A stretch of DNA of 35,690 nucleotides, taken from the NCBI GenBank assembly GCA_018821305.1, contig JAHJMN010000211.1, positions 1 to 35,690 on the forward strand. Direction: 5' to 3'. This document shows, one piece after another, positions 1 through 35,690 of this stretch. Below the pieces are notes generated by a model. It was not told the DNA's origin, did no database searches, and saw only the letters and a program-made list of their open reading frames with translations. Each line of letters opens with the position of its first letter. Position 1 is the first letter of the stretch. The stretch is from Myxococcota bacterium. GTDB taxonomy: Bacteria > Myxococcota_A > Polyangia > HGW-17. Both the position numbers and the translations under genes were made by a program.

Positions 1-150
1 CTGATCCTGATCCTGTTTGCCTGATTACCTGAGTCCCTGTTAAAATATTTCAGGTAAACAGGAAATCAGCAGCAGGAACAGGACAATCAGGGTCTCTTTC
101 CTGAAGCTTTTCTTTAGAATAACTCACAATCGTATTACTCAGGAAGCGGT
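1..150 (+). repeat. Family A intergenic repeat, right part (left part outside window)
   Basis: CCTG/CAGG-rich sequence that can fold on itself (ACCTGA pairs with TCAGGT, CTGTT with AACAG). It ends in the family A right terminus TTACTCAGGAAGCGGT at 135-150. The same series of blocks is found at 31975-32213 and 33930-34212. The left terminus is not in the window. It lies downstream of the minus-strand operon ending at 371. No gene is visible in 1-370. Confidence 0.75.
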
Positions 151-174
151 ATAGACCCCATGCTGATCGATTAG

Positions 175-209
175 TGCCGTATTTGTTGATATTATTAACA
201 AATACAGCA
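175..209. repeat. Hairpin between two family A copies
   Basis: GTATTTGTT (179-187) and AACAAATAC (197-205) are perfect inverted arms around a 9-nt loop. TGC/GCA outside one mismatch extends the stem. It lies about 160 bp beyond the last gene of the minus-strand operon. No clear U-tract follows on the minus strand, so a terminator role is only a possibility. Confidence 0.45.
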
Positions 210-227
210 TTTAAATAAAACCAAGAA

Positions 228-327
228 CATTCAGGAAGTCAGAAACAGTATCAGAATCAGGAAATCAGGGGCCTTTCCTGAAGCATTTTTTTTAAACGAG
301 TCACAATCGTATTACTCAGGAAGCGTT
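228..327 (+). repeat. Family A intergenic repeat, partial second copy
   Basis: Shares the series CAGGAAATCAGGG, TTTCCTGAAGCATTT and CACAATCGTATTACTCAGGAAGCG with the other family A copies. It ends in TTACTCAGGAAGCGTT at 312-327, one base from the consensus end. The left half is missing or degenerate. With the copy at 1-150 it makes a tandem pair of right ends. Confidence 0.65.
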
Positions 328-370
328 ATAGACCGCTTTCGTAAGCAGTCAATATCTCTTACAATTCAGT

Positions 371-7872: not shown

Positions 7873-8029
7873 TCAGTTAATGTCCTGTAATACGATCTTT
7901 TCAACTTTACATCAAATTTGAACAAAGGACATTAAGAATGAAGACCTTGAAATTACTGTAGTGTTCTGAATAGTATGTTTTTTTGAACATGGTCTGTTTT
8001 GAAAAAATGAGTTTCAGGACACGAACTAA
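7873..8029 (+). repeat. Family B/C intergenic element, diverged copy
   Basis: Left end CAGTTAATGTCCTG and right end CAGGACACGAACTAA match the ends of the elements at 31886-32276 and 35553-35690. The first hairpin is TTAATGTCCT (7877-7886) with AGGACATTAA (7926-7935). Compared with the other copies, one base pair in this stem is changed on both sides. The interior between about 7940 and 8010 is not clearly alike. The gap 7833-8217 holds this element, the short copy that follows and the ribosome site of the lipoprotein gene. Confidence 0.65.
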
Positions 8030-8217: not shown

Positions 8218-8715
8218 ATGGTTCGTTTAATATCTCTGATTCTCTTTTCAACAATATTTTTTTCCGCTTGTGAAGACCCCTGTGATAAGGCTTTAAAAAA
8301 GGTAATGACCTGTGTTAAAAAAGAAGAAAAGAATCCAAGGGTAGTTGAAGAAAAGGAAAAAACTGAAAAACCATTGTTTCTTCAGGTGTGCAAACTCAAT
8401 AAATCTAAGTTTAAAAAATGTCTTGGAATTAATGACTGTCAGAAGTATCGAGAATGCCTGAGTAAAGCAGGAACAGATGAAAAAGCAAAATCTGAATATA
8501 TAAAATTAAATCCTGAAGACAACTCCGCACCCGCCGCTGACGCTATGAAAGAAACACCCGCCGCTGACGCTATGAAAGAAGCACCCGCCGCTGACGCTAT
8601 GAAAGAAGCACCCGCCGCTGACGCTATGAAAGAAGCATCCGCCGCTGACGCTATGAAAGAAGCACCCGCCGCTGACGCTATGAAAGAAGTTCCCGCCGCT
8701 GACGCTATGAAATAA
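8218..8715 (+). CDS. Cys-rich lipoprotein with seven 9-residue C-terminal repeats
   Basis: A 165-residue predicted lipoprotein of unknown function. The signal peptide ends in the lipobox FSAC with Cys18 as the lipidated residue. The mature part has six further cysteines (22, 32, 58, 68, 74, 80), in an arrangement that could form disulfides in the periplasm; two C-x9-C pairs are visible. A lysine/glutamate-rich stretch lies between them. From residue 104 to the end are seven copies of APAADAMKE with small changes at the second and ninth-to-first positions. The start is supported by a strong GGAGG eight bases upstream. The gene stands alone, between B/C remnants and the alpha-2-macroglobulin cluster. 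No homologue is recognised. Confidence 0.85.
   Translation: MVRLISLILFSTIFFSACEDPCDKALKKVMTCVKKEEKNPRVVEEKEKTEKPLFLQVCKLNKSKFKKCLGINDCQKYRECLSKAGTDEKAKSEYIKLNPEDNSAPAADAMKETPAADAMKEAPAADAMKEAPAADAMKEASAADAMKEAPAADAMKEVPAADAMK
8527..8712 (+). repeat. 27-bp tandem repeat, seven units, in-frame
   Basis: The unit encodes APAADAMKE; the core CCCGCCGCTGACGCTATG is the same in nearly every copy, so the array is young or homogenised. Variation is confined to the codons around the unit junction (ACA, GCA, GTT; CCC or TCC). Being a multiple of three, copy number changes would keep the frame and only alter length. Local GC is higher than in the surroundings. Confidence 0.95.
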
Positions 8716-9015
8716 TCTGCTTCCCCATTTTTGTCAGAAAACAGGATGGGTTGTAAATATATAATATCAAAGCGTAATCTGTTAATATTATCGTTTCCAA
8801 TATCGATCATTTTACTTTTTAATCGAGGCAAAAATACTATTACAAAGATGCCCATGTTAGTTGAGTTAGAGTATTGCAATATAAAATAATATATCTCGGG
8901 TAGCCAGGCAGTCAGGTAAACAGGGTCATAAACATTTAAGGAAGCGATATAATTCAATTACAATCCTGCTGGGGAAATCCTCCGGATCTACAATCTTGCC
9001 CTTTGCTGTAAAAAT
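8716..9015. other. Gene-free spacer before the alpha-2-macroglobulin leader
   Basis: AT-rich spacer between the lipoprotein and the first macroglobulin gene. At 8899-8965 are scraps resembling family A (CAGTCAGGTAAACAGGG, AGGAAGCGATAT), too degenerate to call a full copy. Reading frames across it on the minus strand are shadows of the repeat array. No promoter could be fixed with confidence. Confidence 0.5.
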
Positions 9016-9210
9016 CTTTTTTATAGTTGTGTTGACTTTTGTAAGGATGTACATTACGCCATGGATTTGTTTTGTTTTAAAAATAAGGGAGTACCTCGTT
9101 ATGAATAAAAAATATAAGCTGTTTGTCAGGCTTTTACCGGTGTTCTTATTACTTTTTGTTTCTTCCTGCCCCCAGAAACCTGGACCCTCCAGACGGGACA
9201 AAAAAGAAGA
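9016..9210 (+). repeat. Leader and signal-peptide block shared with second macroglobulin gene (copy 1)
   Basis: 195 bp that match 14879-15073 with only five mismatches by direct comparison. The block covers about 85 bp of untranslated leader, the ribosome site and the first 37 codons. Identity stops abruptly after GACAAAAAAGAAGA. The leader being kept implies that the duplication included it, and possibly a promoter. Confidence 0.95.
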
Positions 9211-12200
9211 CAATACCAATCTTCCACCTTTAAGGTATTCCGAAAATGCCGAAGTTTTTCCACCAGCCCTTGATAAAACAGCAATAAATCGCCCCGATTT
9301 TGATGGGCTTTATAAAGCTGAATTTCACAAAAAAGCATTTCCAAAGTTAGATGGCCCATATATTTCTTCAAGTGCATTTTGTAATTTTAATCAAATAAAG
9401 CCTGTAATATCAATATATTTTCCATCAGAAATGGTAGAGAAGTCAATTGTTGGAAAACCTGTAAATCCTAATGTGACGGTTATCCCATCAAAGGGTTCTT
9501 TTAAGTGGAATTCTGTCAATAGTCTTCATTTTACTCCAGAAGGTCCATATGTCGTCGGAGAAAGCATAAGAGTTACTGTTTTAAAAGGCTTCAAATCACT
9601 GGAAGGTGAAATCCTGGAAAAAGATGTATCTGAAACACTTACACTTCAAAGGAAATGCCATCTTGGTTCAAAGGTCCTCGGGTGGGATCCAGTTAAAGGC
9701 GACCCTCAACTTGCCGCTTTGACAAATTGCGACCGGAATAATTATGATTATGAAGGATCTTTTTTTCTAAAAAAACAGGGTCAATGTGTCTATTTTGATC
9801 AACCTGTGCCAGTGAAAACTGTTAAAGAGAAAATCATTCTGACAAAAGACGGTGTAAAGATTCCTTACATCATTAAGGTTCACAAGCAGGAGGATGTTAA
9901 ATTTGAAAAAGGACAGGCTTATCAGATTCTTCCAGTGGGCAAATTTGAACCTGGAACCAGAATCCTCTTTAATGTTGATGGAATGCTGACTACGCATGGC
10001 CAGATGGACAGAAAAAAATATCCGGGACTGAGAATTATCAAATCATTTACCATGCCGAAACCCATGGAGGCGGATACTCCTTTTTTTGATAAAAAAGGAA
10101 AAAGTACTGTAGAGAAAAAAGGAAAAAACCTGTTCAATCTCAAGGATGTTGCTGGGAAATTTTACATTAAGTTCTCCAATCCTGTTAAATATTATACAGA
10201 GGAAATTCTGCAAACTCTGGTTAAAATTACTCCAAAAGTGAAACTCTCAATGTGGGTTGATAATAATAATATTTCGGTTGAAGGATCATTTGAACCGAAT
10301 CGAATTTATACTCTCAAAGTTTCGGAAAAATTAGAGGACGACTATGGGTATAAATTAAATGCTCCTTTGATTCTTAAAATAATACCAGCTCAGTCTCCTT
10401 CTCTAATTAAATTTCCTTTCCGTAAAACTTATGAAAAAGAGCATTCAGTAAGTATGTCTACAGTGAATGTTTCTGAATTTACAACAGTATTTTATCCACT
10501 CAATAAGAACAACCTTGTTAAGGGCTTACTTATTGCCGAAATGGGAAAAGGAAATGTTAATAACTTTCCATCTGTCACAATTAGAAAAAAAGGTCTTGCT
10601 AAAGACAATAAAGAAAAAAGACATGTTTTCCCCTTTAAAGATATTCTAAAGGAAAACAAGAAACGACCTGTTTTATTTACAGTCAAGGATTCGATTCCAG
10701 ATGTTAATTATCCTGATAATGATTATTCCAAGCGTTTCGGGATTGTTCAGAACTCTCAAATTGGTGTTTCAGTAAAAATACTTCCGTCGGATACAGTTGT
10801 GTGGGTTAACAATATAACATCAGGCGCTCCACTGGGTGGAACTGAATTATCAGTATTTAATGAAAAAGGAATATTGCTGAGTACTAAAAAAACGGATGAG
10901 CAGGGAGTGGTTGTTATAAAAGACAAGAATCTGATGGATGCGGAAAGACTCTTTTTTGTAATGGAATATCAGGGTGAGCTTTCCTATTATATCCATAAAA
11001 ATTCGAATTCCATCAGAAGTTGGCGTTTTAAGATTCCTTCAAGTGGTGTTGACAACCAGGGAATATATCCATCTGGAATTTTCACAGAAAGAGGAATTTA
11101 TAAACCAGGAGAGACCATACTTTTTAAAGCATTTATCCGCAAGGAACGCGGGGAAAAAATGTTCGCAATTTCTGGAGAAGCTTTCAAAGTCAGTTTGATG
11201 GGACCTCATGGTGATGTTATTGAAACAAAAGAATTTGTATCCAATGATTTCGGATCATTATCCGGTTCTTTTATAACAATTCCAACGGGGAAAAGCGGGT
11301 ACCATGAACTTAAGGTAATTCGAAAATCTGAAGTCATTGCTTCAACACAGGTTCTGGTATCATCTTTTAGAAAGCCGAAATTCAAAGTAAAAATAACTCA
11401 TCTTAAACCTTCGCTCACAAAGGGAGAGAAAATGGCTACAGCGGTGGAAGGACGCTATCTGTTTGGATCTCCCATGGTGGGCGGTGTATTAACATATTCT
11501 ATTTATTCAAGTCCCGGAAATTTTGCACCGGAAGGATACGATGATTTTACCTTTGACCCGGATACAGGATATTCAAGAATGGAAACGCTTGAAACGGCCA
11601 AAGCAAGTCTTTCTCCAGAAGGTAAATTTAGAATTGAAAAGTTGCTGACTCCGGTTCGTCCGGGTCCGGTGCTGATAACAGTTCAGGGCGAAGTTCAAGA
11701 TATTGATAGACAGAGTATTAGCAGAATTTCGAATTTTATTCTTCATCCTGCGGAACACTATGTTGGACTTCGAGTTGTAAATGAGGAGCCAGAAGTAAGA
11801 AAACCAATTCATTTTGAAGCAGTAACTCTTGATCATCAGGGAAAACCGGTGTCAGGAAAACCTGTTAAGATTGGGATATATCGCCGTGTTTATAAATGGA
11901 ACTGGGAATCTGATTCTTTTGATATGTATCAGCAGTACAATGAAAATTATAACGATATTCTGGTTTCAGATTGCAAACTTACAAAATTAAAAGAAAAATT
12001 CAAATGCTCCGGAATTATAAAGGAACCTGGCTCATATAAAGTCATCGCCCGAACCAAGGATAGCAAAGGAAATACCGCAGAATCTGCCCAGTATTTTTAT
12101 GTAAGTGGTGAAGGGGATGCCGCAATGGGCAGAAGTACCTTTGTCCCCATCAGGTTAACTTTAAATAAAAAATCATACATCGTCGGTGAATCGGGAAAAG

Positions 12201-14869
12201 TTCTGGTAACAAGCCCATTTAAAAAAGCCAGTGTTTTATTAACTATTGAAAATCACGGAATTATATATAAACAAGTCCATAAAGTTAAAAATGGAGTAAA
12301 CTGGTTGAATTTTCCTATACCTTTAGAAGCATATCCCAATGGATTTGTTTCAGTGTACTTGCTGACTCCCAGGACTACGAATAAAAAAGATGGGGCCGGA
12401 AGAGATCTTGGTGTTTCTCAGCACCGGATCGGATACGCCCCTTTAATGACATCAACAAAAAGACACAGTATGGGAATTTCAATCACTACTTCAAAGGAAA
12501 AAGCAAAACCCGGTGACGAAGTTGATGTTAAAGTTGCATTAAAATCGCCGGAGGGAAATCCAATTGAAGGAGAAGTTGCTCTGATGGTAGTGGATGAGAG
12601 TGTACTCAGCCTCACTGATTTTCAAACTCCCGACCCACAGAAGGCTATTTTCAAGAAAATTGCACTGAATGTGAATATTACAGATTCCAGATCTGAGATG
12701 GAAGGAGCACTTCGAACTCTTTATGGAATGACTCATCCAGGTGGCGATGGAGATAGCAGTCCACCAAAACCAACAAAAGATTCTAATCCTGTCCGGAAAA
12801 ACTTTAAAAACACCATATATTTCAATCCTTTTTTAAAAACTGATCTGGGTGGGGAAGTAAAAGCAAAAATTTCTCTTCCGGACAACGTCACAACTTATCG
12901 GATTATGGCCGTTGCTATGGACAGAAAGTATCGCTTTGGGTCATCGTCAAAGGAAATCACTGTAAATAAACCCTTGATGGTTGAGCCTGCACTACCACGT
13001 TTTATAATCCACGAGGATAAGATAAGTGCGGGCGTCGTGGCACACAATATGACGACAAAGCCAGTGAAGGCAACGGTTACAATTGAGGCAAAAGGAATCA
13101 AAATTCTTTCCGCGCTCAGGTCGTCAGTTACCATTTATCCGCAGAAACCTGTGGAAATTCCATTTGAAATGAAAGCGGATACTATAGGTGAAGCAAAATT
13201 TACTTTTATTCTGGCAGGTGAAAATGGAGATATGGATAGAGTTCAGACTTCTATTCCGATAAAACCTCTGGTCAGGACCAGAACTCATTTTACAACTGGT
13301 ATGACTGATGATTCACATACTATGAATCTTGATTTTCCGAAAAATGCCCTGACTGGTGGAATGCTTGCTCTGGAAGTGACTTCAAATCCAATGGCTCCAT
13401 TAAAAGAAAGTGTTGATTTTCTTGTAAAATATCCCTATGGATGTGTGGAGCAGACAACATCAAGCACTTATCCCCTTCTTGCGTTGATGGATATTCTACC
13501 CACAATGGGAAGTTCGAAACATAAACCTGAAAAACTTAAAGCGATGGCTCAGACCGGAATTTACAGGCTTTTAAAAATGTCCACTAACTGGGGAGGTCTT
13601 TCCTACTGGCCTGGTGGTTCAGATCCCCACCTTTATGGTACTGCCTATGCGATGCTGGCAGTAAATGCAGCTTTAGATAAAGGTCTCCATCTGCCTGCAG
13701 ATTTTCATAAAGGGATAACAAAATACCTGGAGGGAAAACTCAATGAATCCAATGTACCTTTTAATGAAGAATCATTTATAGTTTATGTACTTTCCAGAGG
13801 AAAGAAGAATTATGCCTCCAGTATTTTCAGATTATTCAAAAATAGAAAAAAACTGAGTATCGAAGGAAAATCATACCTTATGATGACAATGTTGGCAGTA
13901 AATAAAAATGATCCACGAATTGATACTGTTCTTTCAGAATTGGTAGGATCTTTCGACGAAAATGGAAAAATACAAATAAAAGAGGATCGTGATTATGACT
14001 TGTTTGGTTCTTCTTTAAAAACGTACTCCGTAGTCCTTATGGCTCTTCTTGAGTCAGATAAATACAGCGTGTTAGCTCATAAAATTATGAAAAAAATTAT
14101 GATTTCTATGAAGGATGGGTATTTCGGAACTACTCAACAAACAACTTTTGCTCTTATGGCACTGGCTGCCTATGTAAAGAAACTGAATATTTCGGTTATA
14201 CCTCCGGTTTTCAAGGTTACTCTGGATGGAAAATCACTTAATTTTAATGGGTCTGGAACCTCAATTTTTGTCCATAATTTTGATTTTCCGTCTGTTATTG
14301 CAAAAGGAAAGCAGAAACTCACTATTACCTCTCTTAAAAAGGGAAAGCCTGTATTTTTCACTCTGAAGACGAAATTTTCTGAAACTCCGCCGAAAAATGG
14401 TGTGACAGCTTACAGTACCGGTATTTCCGTGTACAAGCGGATAGAAGATGTAAAGGGTAATGCAGCCATGGAAATACAGGGAGGAAAGGTAGTCAGGGTC
14501 AGATTATTTGTGCATATTCCATCCTCTGTAGGTAAAGTGAGATACCTTGCCATAGATGATCCATTGCCTTCCGGATTAGAAGCAATCAACACAGATCTTG
14601 CGACATCTGCAAAAGTAACAACCGGAAACGATACAGCCTACAACCTCGCAAGTTATACGGAGTCCAATATTTCATTTAGAGAATTCCGGGAGGATCGGGT
14701 TTTGTTTTTTGCGGATAGTATAAATTCAGGGTTCTGGGAATTTACTTATCTGGCCCGGGCAACGACCATCGGAAGTGGTTTTGTACCACCGGTTTCAGTT
14801 CACGCCATGTACGATCCCGAGACCCACGCCAGCTCAAACCCTTCCAGACTGACAGTTAAATCCAGGTAG
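9101..14869 (+). CDS. Bacterial alpha-2-macroglobulin lipoprotein, paralogue 1
   Basis: A 1922-residue YfhM/ECAM-type alpha-2-macroglobulin. The signal peptide ends in the lipobox VSSC with Cys23 lipidated and Pro next to it, not the inner-membrane retention Asp of E. coli. A chain of beta-sandwich (MG) domains follows; GIFTERGIYKPGETILFKA near 665 is the typical MG start. VVDESVLSLTDF (about 1163) leads into the proposed bait segment (about 1170-1230), then NVTTYRIMAVAMD. The thioester motif is GCVEQ with Cys1448 and Gln1451. Known relatives trap proteases that cut the bait, covalently linking them through the thioester. Start: ATG 9101 has GGGAG upstream; an in-frame ATG at 8996 would bury the signal peptide. 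The gene lies upstream of a second copy and pbpC. Confidence 0.96.
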   Translation: MNKKYKLFVRLLPVFLLLFVSSCPQKPGPSRRDKKEDNTNLPPLRYSENAEVFPPALDKTAINRPDFDGLYKAEFHKKAFPKLDGPYISSSAFCNFNQIKPVISIYFPSEMVEKSIVGKPVNPNVTVIPSKGSFKWNSVNSLHFTPEGPYVVGESIRVTVLKGFKSLEGEILEKDVSETLTLQRKCHLGSKVLGWDPVKGDPQLAALTNCDRNNYDYEGSFFLKKQGQCVYFDQPVPVKTVKEKIILTKDGVKIPYIIKVHKQEDVKFEKGQAYQILPVGKFEPGTRILFNVDGMLTTHGQMDRKKYPGLRIIKSFTMPKPMEADTPFFDKKGKSTVEKKGKNLFNLKDVAGKFYIKFSNPVKYYTEEILQTLVKITPKVKLSMWVDNNNISVEGSFEPNRIYTLKVSEKLEDDYGYKLNAPLILKIIPAQSPSLIKFPFRKTYEKEHSVSMSTVNVSEFTTVFYPLNKNNLVKGLLIAEMGKGNVNNFPSVTIRKKGLAKDNKEKRHVFPFKDILKENKKRPVLFTVKDSIPDVNYPDNDYSKRFGIVQNSQIGVSVKILPSDTVVWVNNITSGAPLGGTELSVFNEKGILLSTKKTDEQGVVVIKDKNLMDAERLFFVMEYQGELSYYIHKNSNSIRSWRFKIPSSGVDNQGIYPSGIFTERGIYKPGETILFKAFIRKERGEKMFAISGEAFKVSLMGPHGDVIETKEFVSNDFGSLSGSFITIPTGKSGYHELKVIRKSEVIASTQVLVSSFRKPKFKVKITHLKPSLTKGEKMATAVEGRYLFGSPMVGGVLTYSIYSSPGNFAPEGYDDFTFDPDTGYSRMETLETAKASLSPEGKFRIEKLLTPVRPGPVLITVQGEVQDIDRQSISRISNFILHPAEHYVGLRVVNEEPEVRKPIHFEAVTLDHQGKPVSGKPVKIGIYRRVYKWNWESDSFDMYQQYNENYNDILVSDCKLTKLKEKFKCSGIIKEPGSYKVIARTKDSKGNTAESAQYFYVSGEGDAAMGRSTFVPIRLTLNKKSYIVGESGKVLVTSPFKKASVLLTIENHGIIYKQVHKVKNGVNWLNFPIPLEAYPNGFVSVYLLTPRTTNKKDGAGRDLGVSQHRIGYAPLMTSTKRHSMGISITTSKEKAKPGDEVDVKVALKSPEGNPIEGEVALMVVDESVLSLTDFQTPDPQKAIFKKIALNVNITDSRSEMEGALRTLYGMTHPGGDGDSSPPKPTKDSNPVRKNFKNTIYFNPFLKTDLGGEVKAKISLPDNVTTYRIMAVAMDRKYRFGSSSKEITVNKPLMVEPALPRFIIHEDKISAGVVAHNMTTKPVKATVTIEAKGIKILSALRSSVTIYPQKPVEIPFEMKADTIGEAKFTFILAGENGDMDRVQTSIPIKPLVRTRTHFTTGMTDDSHTMNLDFPKNALTGGMLALEVTSNPMAPLKESVDFLVKYPYGCVEQTTSSTYPLLALMDILPTMGSSKHKPEKLKAMAQTGIYRLLKMSTNWGGLSYWPGGSDPHLYGTAYAMLAVNAALDKGLHLPADFHKGITKYLEGKLNESNVPFNEESFIVYVLSRGKKNYASSIFRLFKNRKKLSIEGKSYLMMTMLAVNKNDPRIDTVLSELVGSFDENGKIQIKEDRDYDLFGSSLKTYSVVLMALLESDKYSVLAHKIMKKIMISMKDGYFGTTQQTTFALMALAAYVKKLNISVIPPVFKVTLDGKSLNFNGSGTSIFVHNFDFPSVIAKGKQKLTITSLKKGKPVFFTLKTKFSETPPKNGVTAYSTGISVYKRIEDVKGNAAMEIQGGKVVRVRLFVHIPSSVGKVRYLAIDDPLPSGLEAINTDLATSAKVTTGNDTAYNLASYTESNISFREFREDRVLFFADSINSGFWEFTYLARATTIGSGFVPPVSVHAMYDPETHASSNPSRLTVKSR
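14282..14390 (+). repeat. Near-identical internal block of macroglobulin pair (copy 1)
   Basis: 109 bp matching 20154-20262 with two mismatches, inside coding regions that differ much more on either side. It encodes DFPSVIAKGKQKLTITSL and the following stretch to SETP. Confidence 0.93.
14667..14862 (+). repeat. Near-identical 3' block of macroglobulin pair (copy 1)
   Basis: 196 bp matching 20539-20734 with four mismatches. It covers the C-terminal part from ISFREFREDRV to the final LTVKS; identity ends a few bases before each stop codon. Confidence 0.94.
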
Positions 14870-14878
14870 TAATAAGTT

Positions 14879-15073
14879 CTTTTTTATAGTTGTAATGACT
14901 TTTGTAAGGATGTACATTACGGCATGGATTTGTTTTGTTTTAAAAATAAGGGAGTACCTTGTTATGAATAAAAAATATAAGCTGTTTGTCAGGCTTTTAC
15001 CGGTGTTCTTATTACTTTTTGTTTCTTCCTGCCCCCAGAAACCTGAACCCTCCAGACGGGACAAAAAAGAAGA
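14879..15073 (+). repeat. Leader and signal-peptide block (copy 2)
   Basis: Second copy of the 195-bp leader block, starting 9 bp after the stop of paralogue 1. The two differ at five positions, one of which (GT to AA) breaks a TTGACT hexamer found only in copy 1. This argues against that hexamer being a shared promoter element. Confidence 0.95.
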
Positions 15074-18000
15074 AATGCCGCATATGCAGTTTCCTTCTGC
15101 AGTGAATGTATTTCCTCCTCCGGTTGATAAATCCCCACTAAATCGCCCGGATTTTGCAAAACTGTATGAGCCTGAAACATATAAAAAGACCTTCTCTCAT
15201 TATTCCGAACCGTCAGTTCATACAGAAGGCTTCTGTAATCAGACAAAACTGAAAGGAGTGATATATATTTCCTTTTCAGATCAAATGGTTGAATGGGATA
15301 AAGTTGGGAAAAAGGCTTCGCCTCCCATTTCAATAAATCCACCTGGTGGTATGTTTATCTGGGAATCTCCAGACATATTAAGATTCCACCCTGCTGGTCC
15401 ATTTTCCGGGGAAATGAAGTACCAGGTTTCGGTACCGAAGGACTTGAAATCAATAAAGGGTGGAACCCTTAAAAAGGCATTTACTAAAACTGCAACCATG
15501 AAATCCATGTGTAACATTGGTGGCAAAATAATTGAATGGGAGCCTATAATTGGAAAACCACAAATAGCAGGATTGAATGGTTGTTCTTATTGGGGTAACA
15601 ATATATTAACGAAAGATGGACAATGTGTATATTTTGATCAGTCAGTATCAGCAAAATTTGTTAAAGAAAAAATTGTAGTCACAGTAAATGGAGTGAAAAA
15701 TCCATATCTTCTGAGAGAACAATATTCAAAAGACTCAAAATTTGAGAGAGGACAGGCTTATCAAATAATTCCGAAAGGTCCTTTTAAACCCGGGACAAAA
15801 ATTGTTTTTACGCCGGATAAATCCATTGCTTCCCATGGGCAGACTACACCTGGTAAATTTAGAGACAATTGGTTTATTACTACTCTTACAATGCCCAAAC
15901 CCATGGAAGCCCTGGAACCATCGGTTCCCAAATCCGGAGGGACAGTAAAGAAAATCAGTAAAAATAAATATGAATTATATAATCTGGGTTTCAGGTTTTA
16001 TCTCAAATTTACTAATGAAATTCAAGGATATTCAAAAAAAGAATTCGAAAGATTGATTACTATAACACCTCGAGTGAATCTGACCTTTGAAAATTACGGA
16101 AGCAAAATCTTTATTTTTGGAGACCTTGATCCTAATAAACAATATACAGTTCATGTTTCTAATCGACTGCAGGATCAATACGGGTATTATTTGAAAGAGC
16201 CACAGACGATTATCCTTAAACCAAGGCCACTTTTGCCATCGTTCAAGTACGCCTTTAATAAATCAAGAGAAAAAACAAAAGAAATCGAAATTTCTACGGT
16301 AAATGTTTCGGATTTTACATTGAATGTATATCCTTTGACAAAACAGAATATTATTAAAGGGTTACTTCTTGCGGAAACAGGGAAAGGGAGTATTGCAGAT
16401 ATTCCATTTGTCAAACTGGAGAAAAATAAAATTGTTAAAGATAATAAGGTAAAATTGCACAATTTTTCTTTAAAGGATCATCTGAAAGAAAAATTAATTG
16501 GGCCTGTGCTCTATACTCTTGCCAATTCCGTTCCAAAAATAAACCAACCTGCCAGCGAAGAATTTCGAAAACATTGGCTTTTACAATTTACGCAAATGGG
16601 ATGTTCAGTAAAGATTCTTCCTGATGAATTAATTGTCTGGCTTACCAATATTACTACCGGGGCTCATGTTTCAGGAGCAGAATTGTCCGTTTATGATGAA
16701 AAGGGTAAGCTGCTTCATACAAAAAAATCAGATGAACATGGAGTTGTCCTGATAAAAGAGAAAAATAGACTAATTGCAACAAGACTTTATTTTATTATTG
16801 AACATAAGAATCATCTTGCCTACCATATTCACAAAAAAGAAAAGACGATTGCAAATTGGCGATTTAAAATTCCACAGAGTGGGATCAATTCAGCTGGTTA
16901 TAATCCGGCAATGATTTTTACAGAACGTGGAGCTTATAATCCAGGAGAAACCGTTTTTTTTAAAGCCCTAATAAGGAAGGGATCCGGAGAGGATATGGTT
17001 GCCTTAACTGGAGAAAAAGTTACCGTTGGGATATTTGGACCCTATGATGAAAAAATTGATGAAAAAGTGCTGAATCTTAACGAATTCGGTACTGTATCTG
17101 GTTCATTCAAGACAATTCCCACGTTTCAAAGCGGGAGTCATACTTTAAAGGTTTTTTATAACAAAAACAATATAGCATCAACCACAGTACAGGTTACGGC
17201 GTTCAGAAAACCAAAGTTCAGAGTGAACATAACCACTGAAAAAAGTTCATATATAAATGGTGGGCAAGTACCAATTCAAGTTGAAAGTCGATATTTGTTT
17301 GGTTCGCCCATGGGCAGTGCTGACCTGACATTTTTTTATTTTTTAAGTAAAGGAAAATTTGTCCCAGATGGATATGCAAAATTCTCCTTTAATCCCTTGG
17401 ATAATTATATTGAAACGCCTTATCCAAATAGTTGGAGGGAGACTCTTTCAAGCGATGGAAAATATAATATTAATAAATCATTGAAATTTAATAGCAAAGG
17501 TACCTTAAATGTAATCTTTCAAGCTGATGTTCAGGATATTGACAGACAGACTGTAAGCAGAACTTCAAATATTACTGTCCATCCTGCAGCACATTATGCA
17601 GGTGTTAGAATTGTGGATTTGGAACCAAAAGTTGGAAAACCAACAAAATTTGAAGCTGTTACTCTCGACCACAAAGGAAATCTCTTAAAAGGGAAACCTA
17701 TGAAAGTACAGATTCATAGGCGAACATACACCTGGTATTGGGAATCCGATGGAGGAGATGATAACCAGAGCTTTTATGAAGGATACCGTAATAAATTAGT
17801 CACGGAATGTAAAATAATTCGTACAGGTGAAAAGTTTGAATGCCGCCACATTTTTAAGGAGCCGGGTCTTTATGAGGTCGTTGCACAGACAAAAGACTCA
17901 AAGGGAAATATATCTGAGGGTGCGATGGCTTTTTATGTAATTGGTGAAGGTGAATCTGCCCTTGGCCGAAGTACTTTTGTTCCCATGAATCTAATACTTG

Positions 18001-20747
18001 ATAAAAATATTTATACTGTTGGAGAGGAAGGAAAAGTACTTCTATCAAGCCCGTTTAATAAAGCCAAGGTTCTATTAACTGTGGAAAATCATGGAATTCT
18101 TTACAGGCAGGTTCATGATGTAAAAAAGGGGGTAAACAGAATTTCATTTCCGGTTCCTTCAGGAGCATTTCCCAACGGTTATGTTTCTGCGTATCTTCTG
18201 ACTCCCCGTACCACTGACAAAAAAGACGGTGCCGGAAGGGATCTCGGTGTTTCTCAATTCCGAGTTGGATACGCCGCCTTGAGGACAACAACAAATAAAC
18301 ACAATATGGGTGTTAAAATTACCACTTCGAAGGAAAAAGCAAGACCGGGAGACCAAGTTGATATTAATATTGCGCTTACATCTCCTGAGGGAAATCCTGT
18401 TTCCGGCGAAGTCGCCCTGATGGTTGTGGATGAAAGTGTACTAAGTCTCACAGATTTTCAGACTCCTGATCCGAAGAAAGATGTTTTTCGAAAAATTGGT
18501 TTTAGAGTACGTATATCAGATTCACGTACCGAAATAGAAGGCGAACTCAAAACCCTATACAGTTTGACCCATCCCGGAGGTGGACCGGATATTTCAGTGT
18601 ATGAAGTGCCTAAAATAAAAGATTCAGTACGAAAAACTTTTAAAAATACACTGTATTTTAATCCATCACTTGTCACGGATGCTCAGGGGAAAGTTACTAC
18701 TACAATAACCCTGCCGGACAACGTCACAACATATCGTATTATGGCTGTAGCAATAGATAAAAAATTTCTGTTTGGCTCATCTTCAAAGGAAATAACCGTA
18801 AACAAACCACTGATGATTGAGCCCGCTTTGCCTCGTTTTTTAATCAGTGGTGATAAAATTAAAGCCGGAGTTGTCGCGCACAATATGACGACAAAGCCAG
18901 TGAAAGCAACGGTTACAATTGAGGCAACTGGTATTAAACTGCTATCCACTCCCCGAACGTCAGTTATTATCCATCCACAGAAACCAGTAGAAATTCCATT
19001 TGATATGAAAGCGGATACCATTGGACAGGCACATTTTACATTCTCGGTAAAAACTGAAACTGGTGAGTCTGACAAAGTTCAGACGTCCATTCCTGTAAAC
19101 CCTTTTATCAGGAGCAGAATTCATGTTGCCACTGGGATGACATATGAATCTCATAGTTTAACTCTGGATTTCCCGGAAACGACACTCAAAGAAGGAATGT
19201 TGTCTTTAGAAGTTACTTCAAATCCTCTAACTACTTTAAAGGAAAGCATTGATTACCTCATAAAATATCCGTACGGATGTGTTGAGCAGACAACTTCAAG
19301 TACATATCCTCTTCTGGCCCTGATGGATATACTTCCGACACTTGGAAGTTCCGAGCACACTCCTGAAAAACTTAAAGCTATGGCTCAAAAAGGAATAGAA
19401 AGGTTTTTAAAAATGACTGTGTGGGATGGAGGTCTTGCTTACTGGCCGGGAGGCAACAATTCTCATCCTTATGGTACTGCCTATGCAATGCTTGCAATTA
19501 ATGCTGCCGCTGAAAAAGGCCTTCAAATGCCCCTGAACTTTCGTAACAGAATCGGTGTATACTTGGCAAAAGTACTGAAGGAAAGTGTTGAGAGCAATGT
19601 AAATGCTTATATTATTTATGTGTTGTCTCAAATAAAAAAACATCAGAGCTCATATATTTCAAATTTATACAAAGATAGAAATAAACTGAATATTGAAGCA
19701 AAATCGTGGCTTTATATGGCTATGAATGAAGCAAATAATAATGATCCTAGACTTGAGACACTCCTTAATGAAATAGTCGGGAATTTTGATGAAAACGGTA
19801 ACGTCATTCCCAAAAAGCCACAGAAAAACCTGAATACCAAGACAGATGGACAGGAATATCGAAATTACGGAATGTTCGGATCTCCAATGAAGACCCTGTC
19901 GGTTGTGCTTATGGCTCTTTTATATTCTGATAAATATGTGTCTCTTTCACAAAAACTCGTAACCAAAATCCTTGCATCACAAAAAAATGGATATTTTGGG
20001 ACCACCCAGCAGACCAGTTTTGCCCTGATGGCTCTAGTTGCTTTTGCGAAAAAGCATAATATTGGGTCACAATCTCCAATATTCAAGGTTACGCTGGATG
20101 GTAAACCACTTCAATTTGTCAGTGTGGGGAAAACAGTTTATACCCACAAGTTTGATTTTCCGTCTGTTATTGCAAAAGGAAAGCAGAAACTCACAATTAC
20201 CTCTCTTAAAAAGGGAAAGCCTGTATTTTTCACCCTGAAGACGAAATTTTCTGAAACTCCGCAAAAAGATTATGTATCTGCATACAGTTCCGGGATTTCA
20301 GTGTACAAGCGGATTGAAGATGTTAAGGGTAAAACTGCTCTGGAAGTAGAAGGGGGAAAATTGGTCCGGGTAAGGCTTTTTGTACATATTCCGCAATCGA
20401 ATGAAGACATAAAATACCTGGTAATTGATGATCCACTGCCTTCTGGATTAGAAGCAATCAACACAGACCTTGAGACATCTGCAAAAGTAGCAACAGGCAA
20501 AGAAACGGGATACAAGTTAGCTAATAAAACAAAAGAATATATTTCATTTAGAGAATTCCGGGAGGATCGGGTTTTGTTTTTTGCGGATAGTATAAATTCA
20601 GGGTTCTGGGAATTTACGTATCTGGCCCGGGCAACGACCATCGGAAGTGGATTTGTACCCCCGGTTTCAGCTCACGCCATGTACGATCCCGAGACCCACG
20701 CCAGCTCAAACCCTTCCAGACTGACAGTTAAATCAAATGGGAAGTAA
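14964..20747 (+). CDS. Bacterial alpha-2-macroglobulin lipoprotein, paralogue 2
   Basis: A 1927-residue paralogue of the preceding gene with the same order: signal peptide with lipobox VSSC (Cys23), MG domains (MIFTERGAYNPGETVFFKA is the matching MG start), VVDESVLSLTDF, bait segment, NVTTYRIMAVAID, thioester GCVEQ (Cys1439, Gln1442) and the same C-terminal end. Both thioester residues are intact, so both copies should be able to trap proteases. The bait segment differs strongly from copy 1, with GPDISVYEVPKIKDS against GDSSPPKPTKDSNP. The start has the same GGGAG and spacing as copy 1. Only 94 bp separate the genes, and pbpC starts 3 bp after this stop, so the three are probably one transcript. 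The N-terminal third is the most diverged part. Confidence 0.96.
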   Translation: MNKKYKLFVRLLPVFLLLFVSSCPQKPEPSRRDKKEEMPHMQFPSAVNVFPPPVDKSPLNRPDFAKLYEPETYKKTFSHYSEPSVHTEGFCNQTKLKGVIYISFSDQMVEWDKVGKKASPPISINPPGGMFIWESPDILRFHPAGPFSGEMKYQVSVPKDLKSIKGGTLKKAFTKTATMKSMCNIGGKIIEWEPIIGKPQIAGLNGCSYWGNNILTKDGQCVYFDQSVSAKFVKEKIVVTVNGVKNPYLLREQYSKDSKFERGQAYQIIPKGPFKPGTKIVFTPDKSIASHGQTTPGKFRDNWFITTLTMPKPMEALEPSVPKSGGTVKKISKNKYELYNLGFRFYLKFTNEIQGYSKKEFERLITITPRVNLTFENYGSKIFIFGDLDPNKQYTVHVSNRLQDQYGYYLKEPQTIILKPRPLLPSFKYAFNKSREKTKEIEISTVNVSDFTLNVYPLTKQNIIKGLLLAETGKGSIADIPFVKLEKNKIVKDNKVKLHNFSLKDHLKEKLIGPVLYTLANSVPKINQPASEEFRKHWLLQFTQMGCSVKILPDELIVWLTNITTGAHVSGAELSVYDEKGKLLHTKKSDEHGVVLIKEKNRLIATRLYFIIEHKNHLAYHIHKKEKTIANWRFKIPQSGINSAGYNPAMIFTERGAYNPGETVFFKALIRKGSGEDMVALTGEKVTVGIFGPYDEKIDEKVLNLNEFGTVSGSFKTIPTFQSGSHTLKVFYNKNNIASTTVQVTAFRKPKFRVNITTEKSSYINGGQVPIQVESRYLFGSPMGSADLTFFYFLSKGKFVPDGYAKFSFNPLDNYIETPYPNSWRETLSSDGKYNINKSLKFNSKGTLNVIFQADVQDIDRQTVSRTSNITVHPAAHYAGVRIVDLEPKVGKPTKFEAVTLDHKGNLLKGKPMKVQIHRRTYTWYWESDGGDDNQSFYEGYRNKLVTECKIIRTGEKFECRHIFKEPGLYEVVAQTKDSKGNISEGAMAFYVIGEGESALGRSTFVPMNLILDKNIYTVGEEGKVLLSSPFNKAKVLLTVENHGILYRQVHDVKKGVNRISFPVPSGAFPNGYVSAYLLTPRTTDKKDGAGRDLGVSQFRVGYAALRTTTNKHNMGVKITTSKEKARPGDQVDINIALTSPEGNPVSGEVALMVVDESVLSLTDFQTPDPKKDVFRKIGFRVRISDSRTEIEGELKTLYSLTHPGGGPDISVYEVPKIKDSVRKTFKNTLYFNPSLVTDAQGKVTTTITLPDNVTTYRIMAVAIDKKFLFGSSSKEITVNKPLMIEPALPRFLISGDKIKAGVVAHNMTTKPVKATVTIEATGIKLLSTPRTSVIIHPQKPVEIPFDMKADTIGQAHFTFSVKTETGESDKVQTSIPVNPFIRSRIHVATGMTYESHSLTLDFPETTLKEGMLSLEVTSNPLTTLKESIDYLIKYPYGCVEQTTSSTYPLLALMDILPTLGSSEHTPEKLKAMAQKGIERFLKMTVWDGGLAYWPGGNNSHPYGTAYAMLAINAAAEKGLQMPLNFRNRIGVYLAKVLKESVESNVNAYIIYVLSQIKKHQSSYISNLYKDRNKLNIEAKSWLYMAMNEANNNDPRLETLLNEIVGNFDENGNVIPKKPQKNLNTKTDGQEYRNYGMFGSPMKTLSVVLMALLYSDKYVSLSQKLVTKILASQKNGYFGTTQQTSFALMALVAFAKKHNIGSQSPIFKVTLDGKPLQFVSVGKTVYTHKFDFPSVIAKGKQKLTITSLKKGKPVFFTLKTKFSETPQKDYVSAYSSGISVYKRIEDVKGKTALEVEGGKLVRVRLFVHIPQSNEDIKYLVIDDPLPSGLEAINTDLETSAKVATGKETGYKLANKTKEYISFREFREDRVLFFADSINSGFWEFTYLARATTIGSGFVPPVSAHAMYDPETHASSNPSRLTVKSNGK
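20154..20262 (+). repeat. Near-identical internal block of macroglobulin pair (copy 2)
   Basis: Partner of 14282-14390, two mismatches in 109 bp. The flanking sequences on both sides fall to ordinary paralogue-level similarity. Confidence 0.93.
20539..20734 (+). repeat. Near-identical 3' block of macroglobulin pair (copy 2)
   Basis: Partner of 14667-14862, four mismatches in 196 bp. It ends just before the stop, where the two genes diverge into different tails. Confidence 0.94.
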
Positions 20748-23182: not shown

Positions 23183-23263
23183 AGCGCTTCATGAGTACCC
23201 TGTTTACCTCAAACCCTGTAAAAAAATCAGGGAAGCAGTGAATCATTAGCAGGATCGGGACAA

Positions 23264-23266
<3 letters not shown>
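23183..23266 (+). repeat. Family A repeat, truncated, overlapping the end of cheB
   Basis: Begins with GCGCTTCATGAGTA, close to the family A left terminus. It continues with CCTGTTTACCTC, AATCAGGGAAGCAGT and AGCAGGATCGGGACAATCAGG, which match internal blocks of other copies. The right terminus is missing. The last bases (23264-23266) are the stop codon of cheB on the other strand. It fills the space between convergent pbpC and cheB. Confidence 0.65.
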
Positions 23267-25130
<1,864 letters not shown>

Positions 25131-31610: not shown

Positions 31611-31885
31611 AGAAATCTTACTCCGAAAGTTGTATGTTTATGTCCGTCTATAAAATTTTAAAAGAATCGGACGAAACTGTTATTATTTTTCACTGAATTA
31701 CTTCGGCACTTAAATTGAATTTATGAAGGGAGAATTTTCTTTTTTTACATTTTTTTATCGCCTGAAAACAGACTCTTAATTCTATTATTAGAGAAAAAAA
31801 TATTAATATTATTAAAGGAAATACTATTTGTGGAAAAGATCTTACATTATTGTGTGGATGTAAATAAAAAAGAAAATAAGGCTAA
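31611..31885. other. AT-rich upstream region of the che operon
   Basis: No open frame of note. Very AT-rich with A- and T-tracts, for example around 31735-31750 and 31790-31820. It probably carries the cheA promoter on the minus strand, but no hexamer pair was convincing, and neither a sigma-54 nor a sigma-28 site was seen. The rest of the gene-free stretch to 32297 is taken by the B/C and A elements. Confidence 0.5.
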
Positions 31886-32276
31886 TTAGGTACTGTCCTG
31901 AAATACAATAAATCAAATTTTTCGCTGAATTTTTGCTCAGGACAGTAACCGCAAGGTGTTGAAAATATTACTAGACCGCTTCATGAGTAAAAGGATCGAA
32001 ATCTAAAGAGTGAATACTTTCTTTCGGTCTTTGTAATTATGCTTTGATATTGAATGTTTATGACCTGTTCCTGTTCCTGTTTGCCGGACTACCTGAGTCC
32101 CTGTTTAAAATTTCAGGGATACAGGTAAGCAGTAGCAGGAACAGGAAATCAGGGGGCTCATTCCTGAAGCATTTCTTTAAACCGAGTCACAATCGTATTA
32201 CTCAGGAAGCGGTATAGTGGCCGGATAGAATTTTTAATAAAATTCTTCGCGAAGCGAATTTCCGGACACGAACTAA
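31886..32276 (+). repeat. Family B/C element interrupted by a family A element
   Basis: Left end TTAGGTACTGTCCTG (31886-31900), right end CGGACACGAACTAA (32263-32276). First hairpin TACTGTCCTGA (31891-31901) with TCAGGACAGTA (31937-31947). Second hairpin CCGGA (32221-32225) and AGAATTTT (32227-32234) with AAAATTCT (32239-32246) and TCCGG (32261-32265). Between the two hairpins lies a whole family A element. Without it the element would be about 150 bp, as in the copy at 35553. Confidence 0.8.
31975..32213 (+). mobile_element. Family A element, complete, MITE-like
   Basis: 239 bp bounded by ACCGCTTCATGAGTAA (31975-31990) and its near-perfect inverse TTACTCAGGAAGCGGT (32198-32213). Just outside are CTAG and ATAG, which extend the ends imperfectly. 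The interior has CCTG/CAGG-rich palindromes and no open frame. Compared with the uninterrupted B/C element at 35553, it sits exactly at an ATTATAG site, in a way that fits duplication of TA. That points to a non-autonomous element moved by a TA-specific (IS630/Tc1-like) transposase; the transposase is not in the window. Confidence 0.75.
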
Positions 32277-32297
32277 TTATAAAGAAGATTAGAGGAT

Positions 32298-33398
32298 TTA
32301 TGGAAAACGAAAACCGATTCCTGCATTGAACTGGTGGGAAACTATATCTGTCGAATCAGATATTCGAGTGTAATCAAATTTTATTACTACATTTTTAGCA
32401 GGAAAATAGCTCACGCCAGTTGTTATGAGATTTCGTTTGCCCTGAGGATATGCTTCAAAACCATCAAACATCTTGAATTGTGTATTTATGTGTTCATACC
32501 TTATAAACAATTTCAGTGCATGTGAGTTTAATCTGGTAACTAAGGAACGAGGTAAAGAAACAGCCGATTCAATATAAAAACCGAGCATACTTTCTGCAAC
32601 TCCAGATGGTAATAAAATGGAATTTTCAAGTTTAGTAAATGCAAATTCCCCGGTAATTTCGAGGAGACTATACCTGAATTGCAAATCTGCTGCAATCATT
32701 GTAAAAAGACTATCAACCTGATTGTCTATTCCTTTATTTGATCTATTTACTTTGCCTGAAAAAAACGATACCCCTGTTGACAAGTATGCGTTTTTACGGT
32801 CAAAAGGAGTCATCACAAATCTGCCTAATGCTGAAGGGCTGTCTATTCCCGGTCTTTCTTTTACACGTCCACCTCGAATACCATCTATAGAATTAAATCC
32901 GCTTCCGTCAAGACCACCCGCAATGCCAAGTAAAAAATTAAACCATCCTTTTTTTCCCGAGATCATTATTCCATCGGAACTCCATGTTGATGGAATTAAA
33001 CTTTTTGCGAACAGTGGACGTTCAACGCCATTAAAAAAGACTGGCTCGTGAAATTGATTTATTAGTCCAATCGGTGTCAAAAAACGTCCTGCCGTAACTT
33101 TAAAAACATTGTTAATCTTAAAATCAATGTTTGCAGATTCCAGCATCAGATACCCGCCTGATTCGGAATCCACAAATGCATGTTCAATTTCGATTTCTGA
33201 GTTAAACCGTATTTTTTTACTGAATTGGTAACCAATATAGGTGACGATTCTATGCAAATCAAAAGAATCCGGGTCAGAACCTTTATTAATGTTTAAATGG
33301 ATATCTCCATATCCACCGATGCTGAGTTTTTCAATTTTATCCTGCGCATGTGAAGAAAAACTGAAAATTAATAAACAAAAAAAGACTAAAAATTTCAT
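32298..33398 (-). CDS. Outer-membrane porin, OprO/OprP-like
   Basis: A 366-residue predicted beta-barrel. The signal peptide is cleaved probably after SHA (residue 18). The mature chain shows alternating amphipathic strands: LSIGGYGDIHLN, RIVTYIGYQFSKKIRFNSEIEIEHAF, then a segment AGRFLTPIGLINQFHEP that is typical of phosphate-selective porin O/P-like proteins, and it ends in GIGFRFP with Phe next to last rather than last. It should form a channel in the outer membrane; the solute is unknown. AAGGAA stands upstream of the start. It is a single gene divergent from rnpB, with its 3' end 21 bp from the B/C element. Confidence 0.85.
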   Translation of the reverse strand: MKFLVFFCLLIFSFSSHAQDKIEKLSIGGYGDIHLNINKGSDPDSFDLHRIVTYIGYQFSKKIRFNSEIEIEHAFVDSESGGYLMLESANIDFKINNVFKVTAGRFLTPIGLINQFHEPVFFNGVERPLFAKSLIPSTWSSDGIMISGKKGWFNFLLGIAGGLDGSGFNSIDGIRGGRVKERPGIDSPSALGRFVMTPFDRKNAYLSTGVSFFSGKVNRSNKGIDNQVDSLFTMIAADLQFRYSLLEITGEFAFTKLENSILLPSGVAESMLGFYIESAVSLPRSLVTRLNSHALKLFIRYEHINTQFKMFDGFEAYPQGKRNLITTGVSYFPAKNVVIKFDYTRISDSTDIVSHQFNAGIGFRFP

Positions 33399-33529
33399 AT
33401 TAAAGCATTCCTTTTTCGAGAGGGTTAGTTTTATTCCTGAGTTATTGATTTATAAAACAGGAAGACAAACATGTATTTGTTAGACGTGTCTATAAATGTC
33501 AAGAAAAAAGTGGTTTTTGTAATCAATTA

Positions 33530-33557
33530 TTGACGGAGATTTGTTTTGTGGTAGTGG
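33530..33557 (+). promoter_or_regulatory. rnpB: Possible rnpB promoter
   Basis: TTGACG at 33530-33535 is a good -35 hexamer. With a 16-bp gap TAGTGG (33552-33557) would be a weak -10, placing the transcript start at about 33565, where the first helix of the RNA begins. The spacing supports the call; the poor -10 limits it. Confidence 0.35.
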
Positions 33558-33564
33558 TGTCAAC

Positions 33565-33918
33565 GGAGGATGGGGTGGTGATCGCCGGAAATAATAGATT
33601 TTCGGAGGAAAGTCCGGGCTCCTCAGGGCAGGACGCTGGGTAACGCCCAGTCGAGGTAACTCGAAGGAAAGTGCCACAGAAAATATACCGCTGAGGCTTT
33701 GGTTCCTCAGTAAGGGTGAAAAGGTGCGGTAAGAGCGCACCGGTTTTTCGGTGACGGAAAACGCATGGTAAACCCCGTCTGGAGCAAGGTAAAATGGCGT
33801 ATGGCTCTGCCCGGGCCTTTTACGCCAGGTAACCGCTTGAGCTGCATGGAAACATACAGCCTAGATGAATGATCGCCCCTCGCAAGAGGAACAGAACCCG
33901 CGCTTACAACCATCCTCC
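33565..33918 (+). ncRNA. rnpB: RNase P RNA, bacterial class A
   Basis: About 354 nt. The ends pair as helix P1: GGAGGATGG (33565-33573) with CCATCCTCC (33910-33918). The universal core is clear: GAGGAAAGTCCGGGCTCC (33605-33622), GCCACAGAAAATATACCGC (about 33671), AGGGTGAAAAGGTGCGGTAAGAGCGCACC, AACCCCGTCTGGAGCAAG, and the 3' part AGATGAATGATCGCC with ACAGAACCC. This is the catalytic RNA that matures tRNA 5' ends. A run of seven T (33921-33927) follows at once and may end transcription. Reading frames drawn across it are not real. Confidence 0.97.
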
Positions 33919-33929
33919 ACTTTTTTTAT

Positions 33930-34212
33930 ATTGCTTCCTGAGTAAAAGGATCGAAGCGTTAAAAACAAATGTTATCATCACAACACTTTGGAATTATGAA
34001 TTAATATTGAATGTTTGCGCCCTGATCCTGAACCTGATCCTGACTTCCTGATTACCTGTTAAAAAAATCAGATATTCAGGTAAACAGTAGCAGGAACAGG
34101 AAAATCAGGGTCTTTTTCCTGAAGGTATTTCTACAAAATTAAACACAATAGTATTAACTCGTAAGCGGTCTATCTTTAAAACAAGTCACTATCCTATTAC
34201 TCAGGAAGTGGC
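33930..34212 (+). mobile_element. Family A element with doubled right end, after rnpB
   Basis: Left end GCTTCCTGAGTAA (33933-33945) then AAAGGATCGAAGCG, matching the complete copy. There are two right ends: TTAACTCGTAAGCGGTC (about 34153-34169) and TTACTCAGGAAGTGGC (34197-34212). The interior has the usual ATATTGAATGTTT, CCTGATTACCTG and CAGTAGCAGGAACAGG blocks. It fills most of the gene-free gap 33919-34294; the rest (34213-34294) shows nothing recognisable. Confidence 0.7.
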
Positions 34213-34294
34213 ACTGTCCACTGGCAATTCGCAATGTAGTTCACGATGCAAGGCAAAAACAGGGCCGCAAGCGATCTAAAACTTCTAAACCGAT

Positions 34295-35446
34295 TTAACC
34301 TGGGGGAACTATAATAAGATGAATGACGGGAACTTTACCGCTGTGGACGATGGGAGCAGTCCACACTGTTCCAACTAAAACCTTTGATTTGATGCTTGTT
34401 TTTAATATGCTCGCGGTGTCAAAAGTATCACTTATCTGATTGTTAATTTCAGGAAATCTTATTGCCAGTTCTGTGTTTCCAAAATCACTACCACAAGTAA
34501 TTCCTCTGAAAATATGCTTAGCCGCTTCGTTAAAGAAAACAATTCTGTTTTCAGAATCAATAATTAAGGAAGAAAAAGGACTCTGATTCACCATGAGTTG
34601 GACAGCATCTTCTACGTTGAATTCACTTATTTTGGTATCCGGATCCAGGCAATGGGTATCAGAATGAAAAAGATGCAGGTTGTTTATAACTTTTTGAAAG
34701 GTTTCCGATCGTTTTTCCGGTGGTCCCAGATAATCGGAAATAATAGTGTGCAGTTCATCATCTGAACTAAAACCAGGAAGAACCAGTTTTCCATGGACAT
34801 CAAAATCCGGAAGTCGTCGAAATAGAAGTTCAAAACCAATTATTCCGCAGGCATAAATATCCATAGAAGGCTCGGGAGCATTTCCCGATAAGATTTCCGG
34901 TGCGAGATATTCTTTTGTTATGCCAGATATTTTCCAGTCCCCAAGTCTCCTTTTGGGCATAATATCAAATATTTTAACTTGAAAATCTGGTGAATTGGGA
35001 GTGATTATAAAAATATTTTCCGGTTTTATATCTCCATGAATTATATCGTTTTTATGAAGAAAATAAATTATTTCAGAGATACTGGATAAGATTCTCAAAA
35101 TTAATTTAGAAGAAAAAGAAACCCCTTTTTTCATAAGACCAGATAGAGTATCTCCGTGTAAATACTCCATGACCATAAAGGGACCGGATACTGGATCCGT
35201 GCCGAAATCATAGGTTTTTACCAATCCGGAATGAGTTAAATCTGATGTAAGGCGAGCTGCAGCGAGAAAATGCCTGGAAAGTTGAGTTGAATCAAGATTT
35301 TCAGAGGGGAGAAGGAGTTTTACAGCAACTTCAAGATGTGTTTCAAAATCAAGAGCTTTATAAACGGCTCCCTGACCCCCTGTATTAACAAGTTTTAACA
35401 GTTTGTATCGGTTTTTAATGATAATTTGATGTTCCATTTGATCCAC
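34295..35446 (-). CDS. Atypical Ser/Thr kinase fused to a C-terminal PAS domain
   Basis: A 383-residue protein with no membrane helix. The kinase fold is recognisable by TGGQGAVYKA (22-31), Lys43 in VAVKLL, HGDIKPEN (137-144), and YLAPE with DIYACGIIGFELL. The catalytic loop has HGD in place of HRD, and DFG is replaced by DIM (161-163), while Lys43, Asp139, Asn144 and Asp161 are all kept. It may be a weak or non-RD kinase. From about 282 to 380 a PAS-like domain is seen (SSLIIDSENRIVFFNEAAKHIF), suggesting control by a small molecule or redox state. The start is GTG at 35446 with GGAAAG 10 bases upstream; an ATG at 35437 is an alternative. It stands alone. Confidence 0.87.
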   Translation of the reverse strand: MDQMEHQIIIKNRYKLLKLVNTGGQGAVYKALDFETHLEVAVKLLLPSENLDSTQLSRHFLAAARLTSDLTHSGLVKTYDFGTDPVSGPFMVMEYLHGDTLSGLMKKGVSFSSKLILRILSSISEIIYFLHKNDIIHGDIKPENIFIITPNSPDFQVKIFDIMPKRRLGDWKISGITKEYLAPEILSGNAPEPSMDIYACGIIGFELLFRRLPDFDVHGKLVLPGFSSDDELHTIISDYLGPPEKRSETFQKVINNLHLFHSDTHCLDPDTKISEFNVEDAVQLMVNQSPFSSLIIDSENRIVFFNEAAKHIFRGITCGSDFGNTELAIRFPEINNQISDTFDTASILKTSIKSKVLVGTVWTAPIVHSGKVPVIHLIIVPPG

Positions 35447-35552
35447 GTTCAGTGACTTTCCGCAAAAGGACTATATCCGCTACACGTGAAGTTGAGCAAG
35501 GAAAATCACCATTATGTCAGAACGGTTCCAAAGTAATGTGATAGTGACTTAT

Positions 35553-35690
35553 TTAGTTACTGTCCTGAAATACCGAAAATCAAATTTTTCGCCCGATTTT
35601 TGCTCAGGACAGTAACCGCAAGGTGTTGAATTTATTATAGTGGCCTGTTAGGATTTTTAATAAAATCCTTCGCGAAGCGAATTACAGGAC
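35553..35690 (+). repeat. Family B/C element, uninterrupted (right end outside window)
   Basis: Left end TTAGTTACTGTCCTG (35553-35567). First hairpin TACTGTCCTGA (35558-35568) with TCAGGACAGTA (35604-35614). Second hairpin CCTGT (35644-35648) and AGGATTTT (35650-35657) with AAAATCCT (35662-35669) and ACAGG (35684-35688). It reads straight through ATTATAGTGGCC where the copy at 31886 has a family A element. The window ends about 8 bp before the expected end. Confidence 0.8.

Follow-up and report, generated by a model that had tools for sequence, protein, structure and literature searches.

The window analysed here, a whole stretch of 35,690 nucleotides, is contig C29 of a draft genome of 5.22 Mb in 216 contigs. 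Two very large paralogous genes of about 1950 aa lie in tandem (8996-14869 and 14895-20747) and look alpha-2-macroglobulin-like when read by eye; a penicillin-binding-protein-1C-like gene comes after them. The two resemble each other at 85-97% in their 3' ends and signal regions, which suggests gene conversion. A small lipoprotein-like gene carries a 27-bp tandem repeat (8500-8742; unit APAADAMKE), and near the far end lies a class A RNase P RNA gene (33565-33922; 310.6 bits). As a preliminary description had stated, no transposase is found in the window on reading by eye. The short elements of families A, B/C and D present in the window, with the target duplications that flank them, are as follows.

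1..151, + strand: family A copy, cut off on the left by the contig start but intact at its right end; TA at 152-153
154..328, + strand: related family D; left end GACCCCATGCTGATCG, right half similar to A; in tandem with the A copy at 1..151, the TA being held in common
7876..8026, + strand: B/C-type MITE, 151-bp variant, with a perfect 6-bp duplication TAATCA
23199..23273, + strand: family A fragment (inner CCTG-rich part) in an intergenic gap
31883..31888, no strand: B/C 6-bp target duplication, left copy TAATTA
31889..32273, + strand: B/C MITE split by A, own length ~142 bp
31889-31971: left half of the split B/C element, starting GGTACTGTCCTG
31972..31973, no strand: TA target duplication, left copy, in the context C-TA-(G of element A)
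31974..32214, + strand: complete family A MITE of 241 bp with imperfect terminal inverted repeats, GACCGCTTCATGAGTAA / TTACTCAGGAAGCGGTA; long hairpin
32215..32216, no strand: TA target duplication, right copy, followed by the G of the target CTAG
32217-32273: right half of the split B/C element, ending here CCGGACACGAAC versus the consensus end CAGGACACGAAC
32274..32279, no strand: B/C 6-bp target duplication, right copy TAATTA
33929..34213, + strand: degenerate family A copy enlarged to 285 bp, beginning a few bases past the RNase P RNA 3' end; TA at its left side only
35556..35690, + strand: B/C MITE lacking A and truncated where the contig ends; ATTATAGTGG at its mid-site, the C of CTAG missing

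From 31883 to 32279 the order is thus TAATTA, left B/C half, C-TA, A (241 bp), TA-G, right B/C half, TAATTA. The preliminary description had proposed that a mobile element with inverted ends interrupts the B/C copy near 31886 and that the copy near 35553 preserves the empty site, an observation that is right in substance and requires correction in its details. The interruption itself is confirmed (the copy near 35553 reads GTTGAATTTATTATAGTGGCC, and the filled copy resumes with TAGTGGCC). The two B/C copies, which are 89% alike on either side of A, are not the same up to ATTA as had been thought (GTTGAAAATATTA versus GTTGAATTTATTA), and the insert consists of 241 bp (31974-32214) together with a single TA, rather than of 239 bp. 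If this TA is counted a single time, the flanks of the filled site join to ATTACTAGTGGCC (ATTACTAGTGG across the join), whereas the copy at 35556 reads ATTATAGTGGCC, with one C fewer, and exact restoration of the empty site therefore fails for this pair. It holds for other B/C copies of the same genome: an exact empty site in the sampled genome (L083) aligns with the joined flanks over 118 bp, ungapped, at 97.5% and reads GTTGAAAATATTACTAGTGGCC, and the motif TTACTAGTGGCC is present in 18 of the 37 distinct empty B/C sites. These exact TA-once empty sites bear out the earlier claim that A is or was mobile.

Family A is abundant and dispersed. The 16-base motif of its end occurs 325 times in the genome versus 3 times for the reversed control, a difference that excludes chance, and a scored search, in which 40 of 561 candidates were scored, gave 53 matches, most of them near full length; the genome search for further copies and common ends that the preliminary description had proposed thus found both. 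Density was assessed in a sample of 436 kb, comprising twenty 20-kb stretches and the window, in which 61 A intervals were present, 26 of them at least 200 bp long. Scaling gives ~730 and ~310 genome-wide, respectively, numbers that are estimates and may lie slightly too high, because the stretches come from long contigs and several of these were known beforehand to contain copies. Within the sample, A makes up 2.2% of the sequence, and long reading frames cover 77% of the bases but only 1% of those in A. Head-to-tail A copies with one common TA occur. Family D (start GACCCAATGCTGATCGGTTA) also adjoins TA, has a CCTG-rich inner part and resembles A in places in its right half; its start has 8 matches in the 436-kb sample, and members lie at window 154-328, L083 8813, L089 2989 and 17485, and L071 (- strand).

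As a single strand, A folds into a long hairpin (z = -6.3). Together with the intergenic placement and the one copy lying directly behind the RNase P RNA gene, this strong hairpin fits a reading in which A is maintained because it has a function, as a structural or regulatory repeat (e.g., a transcription terminator or an RNA processing hairpin), and its mobility is incidental. Such a reading is unlikely, however, as hairpins and intergenic locations are usual for MITEs, nothing shows that the position of A is conserved, and the stretches read from the rnpB and cheA flanks of the related species are without A copies. In the congener G001 (same genus), the cheA and rnpB neighborhoods were found to be too diverged or rearranged for a base-exact comparison with an orthologous empty site, and both A and B/C are absent from the cheA/rnpB stretches read there. 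As a separate observation, the degenerate, enlarged A copy next to the RNase P RNA gene could have displaced or changed what natively lay downstream of that gene.

The 241-bp window copy begins and ends GACCGCTTC...GAAGCGGTA, the canonical ends are GACCGC...GCGGTC, and the element is short and encodes no transposase between its terminal inverted repeats (GACCGCTTC/GAAGCGGTC). The inverted ends that the preliminary description had derived from the filled site are therefore real, while its boundaries lie a few bases away from those given here because the target is CTAG. Amongst 46 complete copies of 200-300 bp (commonest sizes 241-243 bp), TA immediately flanks the left end of 40, the right end of 39 and both ends of 35, compared with about 1-8 of the 46 copies at positions shifted by 3 to 9 bases. 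The target duplication of TA proposed earlier, as in IS630/Tc1 transposition, is accordingly seen at the flanks of other copies, which also have common ends. In approximately one quarter of the complete copies TA is missing from one side or from both, presumably as a result of decay or recombination. The target is CTAG in 14 of 35 cases (40%), against a background in which 0.8% of genomic TA lies within CTAG, and in 4 of 19 once nested and tandem copies are removed (binomial p about 1e-5). The target of A is thus C^TA^G with TA duplicated, as in IS630.

Repeat recombination, rather than mobility of A, might have placed A-like DNA inside B/C, since the genome is full of repeats and two loci (L030 and L085) have a recombination-like look, with A next to B/C sequence on one side only. 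This explanation is highly improbable. At another locus (L088), a second A copy, which belongs to a different subfamily and has the opposite orientation, occupies precisely this TA in a further complete B/C copy, both halves of the host being intact. Such an arrangement makes transposition far likelier than one event of recombination. There are also exact empty sites with TA once, and the TA and CTAG bias is found at unrelated sites too. Equally hard to credit is a 4-bp duplication of CTAG with A one base shorter at each end (ACCGC...GCGGT), which at CTAG targets yields a sequence identical to that of the TA reading but is rejected at non-CTAG targets, where the inner G and C are constant and the outer base varies on one side only (e.g., left CTAA, right CTAG in L006, L010 and L019), so that the duplication is TA and not CTAG.

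A search of the genome for PF13358, the IS630-type DDE domain, identified two fragments, on contigs C56 and C10 (PF13358 E 3.6e-19 and 7.6e-9; NF033545 E 6.6e-20 and 4.3e-7), which Pfam and NCBIfam likewise assign to the IS630 family, with NCBIfam scores under the whole-protein cut-off, as expected of fragments. Both adjoin ends of the A type: the DDE_3 fragment on C56 is frameshifted near its end and followed by ACAATCGTATTACTCATGAAGCGGTCTA, an A-type right end, and that on C10 lies just inside a preceding A-type end. At the starts of contigs C44 and C56 lies an A-type left end, behind which MKILSIDLR runs straight into HSGYVINE-stop, the C-terminus of the transposase. These derivatives are internal deletions in which the start of the gene is joined to its end, as expected when a MITE arises. 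Of 59 genomes, 2 matched A-type ends, one being the window's own genome and the other the congener G001, in which this 28-bp end stands in front of an N-terminus of IS630-like type (MKILSLDLRMRIVESYESG; assigned from its position, from its similarity to the derivatives of the window's genome and from a Tc1-type HTH model that it matches weakly). The congener also contains a 290-bp derivative with A-type ends around a piece of the 3' part of the transposase. A therefore has 28 bp of its ends in common with IS630-type remnants, all of them frameshifted or truncated; no intact autonomous copy was found, and neither this assembly nor that of the congener contains an intact IS630 transposase. Because contigs end inside these sequences, the intact parent may lie hidden in gaps of the assembly or may have become extinct. 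The search for a transposase gene with the same terminal repeats, suggested in the preliminary description, thus yielded IS630-family remnants in both genomes. With no gene of its own, many copies with common ends and these remnants, A conforms to the non-autonomous MITE that had been predicted.

B/C, treated earlier as the landing site of A, does serve as such, but it is not merely that. Complete copies are 141-142 bp long, with a variant of 151-153 bp, have the ends GTTACTGTCCTG and CAGGACACGAAC, and are flanked by a 6-bp duplication TANNTA that is exact in 26 of 52 copies and within one mismatch in 41 of 52 (controls: 0-2 when slid, and 2.8 on average with the flanks re-paired). The possibility that B/C is an IS630-type MITE with a TA duplication is ruled out by this 6-bp length. 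At the start of contig C216 (L108; G000:C216:1-1632) is an ISNCY-family transposase gene (NCBIfam NF033593, PF01609; 294 bits against NF033593, under the curated cut-off of 325), and the right end of this insertion sequence (IS) reads CAGGACAGTAAC, then TATTTA. Its left end, GTTCGTGTCCTG, follows TATTTA or TAACTA at the ends of six further contigs (L139, L140 and L142-L145), the flanks being read on different copies because contigs break inside the IS. The 12-bp ends of B/C are identical to both IS ends, GTTCGTGTCCTG and CAGGACAGTAAC, and the duplication has the same length in both, so that B/C belongs to a transposase other than that of A. B/C is itself a second MITE, unrelated to A. The IS is multi-copy and ~1.7 kb long; its left ends are nearly identical in the six further contigs, and it is therefore probably recent. 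Many draft contigs stop within B/C, at one and the same base or close to it (window 35556-35690, C75, C201, C81, C119, C206, C117, C89, C17 and C210), which makes this repeat a main cause of assembly breaks. B/C was not found in seven related genomes, in a search without a positive control, and no relatives of the ISNCY transposase were confirmed in the named genomes.

Taken together, the data make it very probable that family A is an IS630/Tc1-mariner-type MITE that was moved in trans into TA and later landed in B/C, itself an ISNCY-type MITE. A is a non-coding, hairpin-forming DNA of 241 bp that retains the terminal sequences of an IS630-family IS, and in the mechanism proposed an IS630-family DDE transposase acting in trans would cut it at its ends. 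Insertion at TA, preferably within 5'-CTAG-3', would then duplicate the TA, with chemistry that is presumably cut-and-paste. In the window, B/C would have come earlier, inserted by an ISNCY-family transposase with a 6-bp TANNTA duplication, and one A copy would then have landed in the CTAG in the middle of B/C. The B/C duplication TAATTA is intact around both elements, which argues that A is the later arrival.

The two families are new representatives of kinds that are already known, and IS630-type MITEs have been described previously, e.g., RUP of Streptococcus pneumoniae, which is 107 bp long, has ends like those of IS630-Spn1 and is present in about 110 copies (PMC3049150). Like RUP, A is a small, non-coding, hairpin-forming, intergenic, high-copy repeat with ends resembling a resident IS630-family element. 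Sequence and host are unrelated, and A is longer (241 bp), more numerous and accompanied by visible internal-deletion derivatives of its parent. The established TA behavior of IS630 and ISY100 (PMC2170065) provides the model for the mechanism of A, and IS630 of Shigella sonnei is described, in work cited there, as transposing preferentially to the TA in 5'-CTAG-3' (Tenzen and Ohtsubo 1991; also Tenzen et al. 1990; cited in PMC2170065). A resembles these elements in its TA duplication, in its CTAG preference (reported for IS630) and in the DDE_3/IS630-family remnants that have its ends; unlike them, it has no gene, and its parent is seen as remnants only. B/C likewise differs from the ISNCY-family IS on C216 (NF033593, PF01609) in having no gene, while sharing both 12-bp ends and the 6-bp duplication. 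Other MITEs, too, are reported to reach several hundred copies, as ERIC does with 711 in Photorhabdus (PMC10969869). A search of the phage collection gave no match, and the exact 22-base end of A was found in none of the named genomes.

Although the picture of how such elements work is unchanged, the genome offers a fully documented bacterial MITE case, in which the exact empty sites, the duplication of TA at CTAG targets, remnants of the parent and intermediates with internal deletions can all be seen, and in which a second MITE family stands alongside its own multi-copy parent. The repeats also explain why the assembly breaks often there. More tentatively, since the first base of A is G and its last is C, each insertion at a CTAG would rebuild CTAG on both sides and create new preferred targets, which may favor tandem and nested arrangements. 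The central CTAG of B/C would then act as a landing pad, and, in a genome that otherwise has few CTAG sites, two MITE families with different transposases might make up an ecology of nesting repeats that feeds itself. We regard this idea as possible though somewhat doubtful; if true, it would explain the tandem A arrays and the nests of A in B/C.

In both species, IS630 remnants were additionally observed fused to a second recurrent segment (...GAATTTGAGTCTGTAGGTTACTGCTGCGAGTTCGTCGAG...; L039 about 1850-2280, L112, L126 and L128), which is possibly another mobile family or a fixed cargo.
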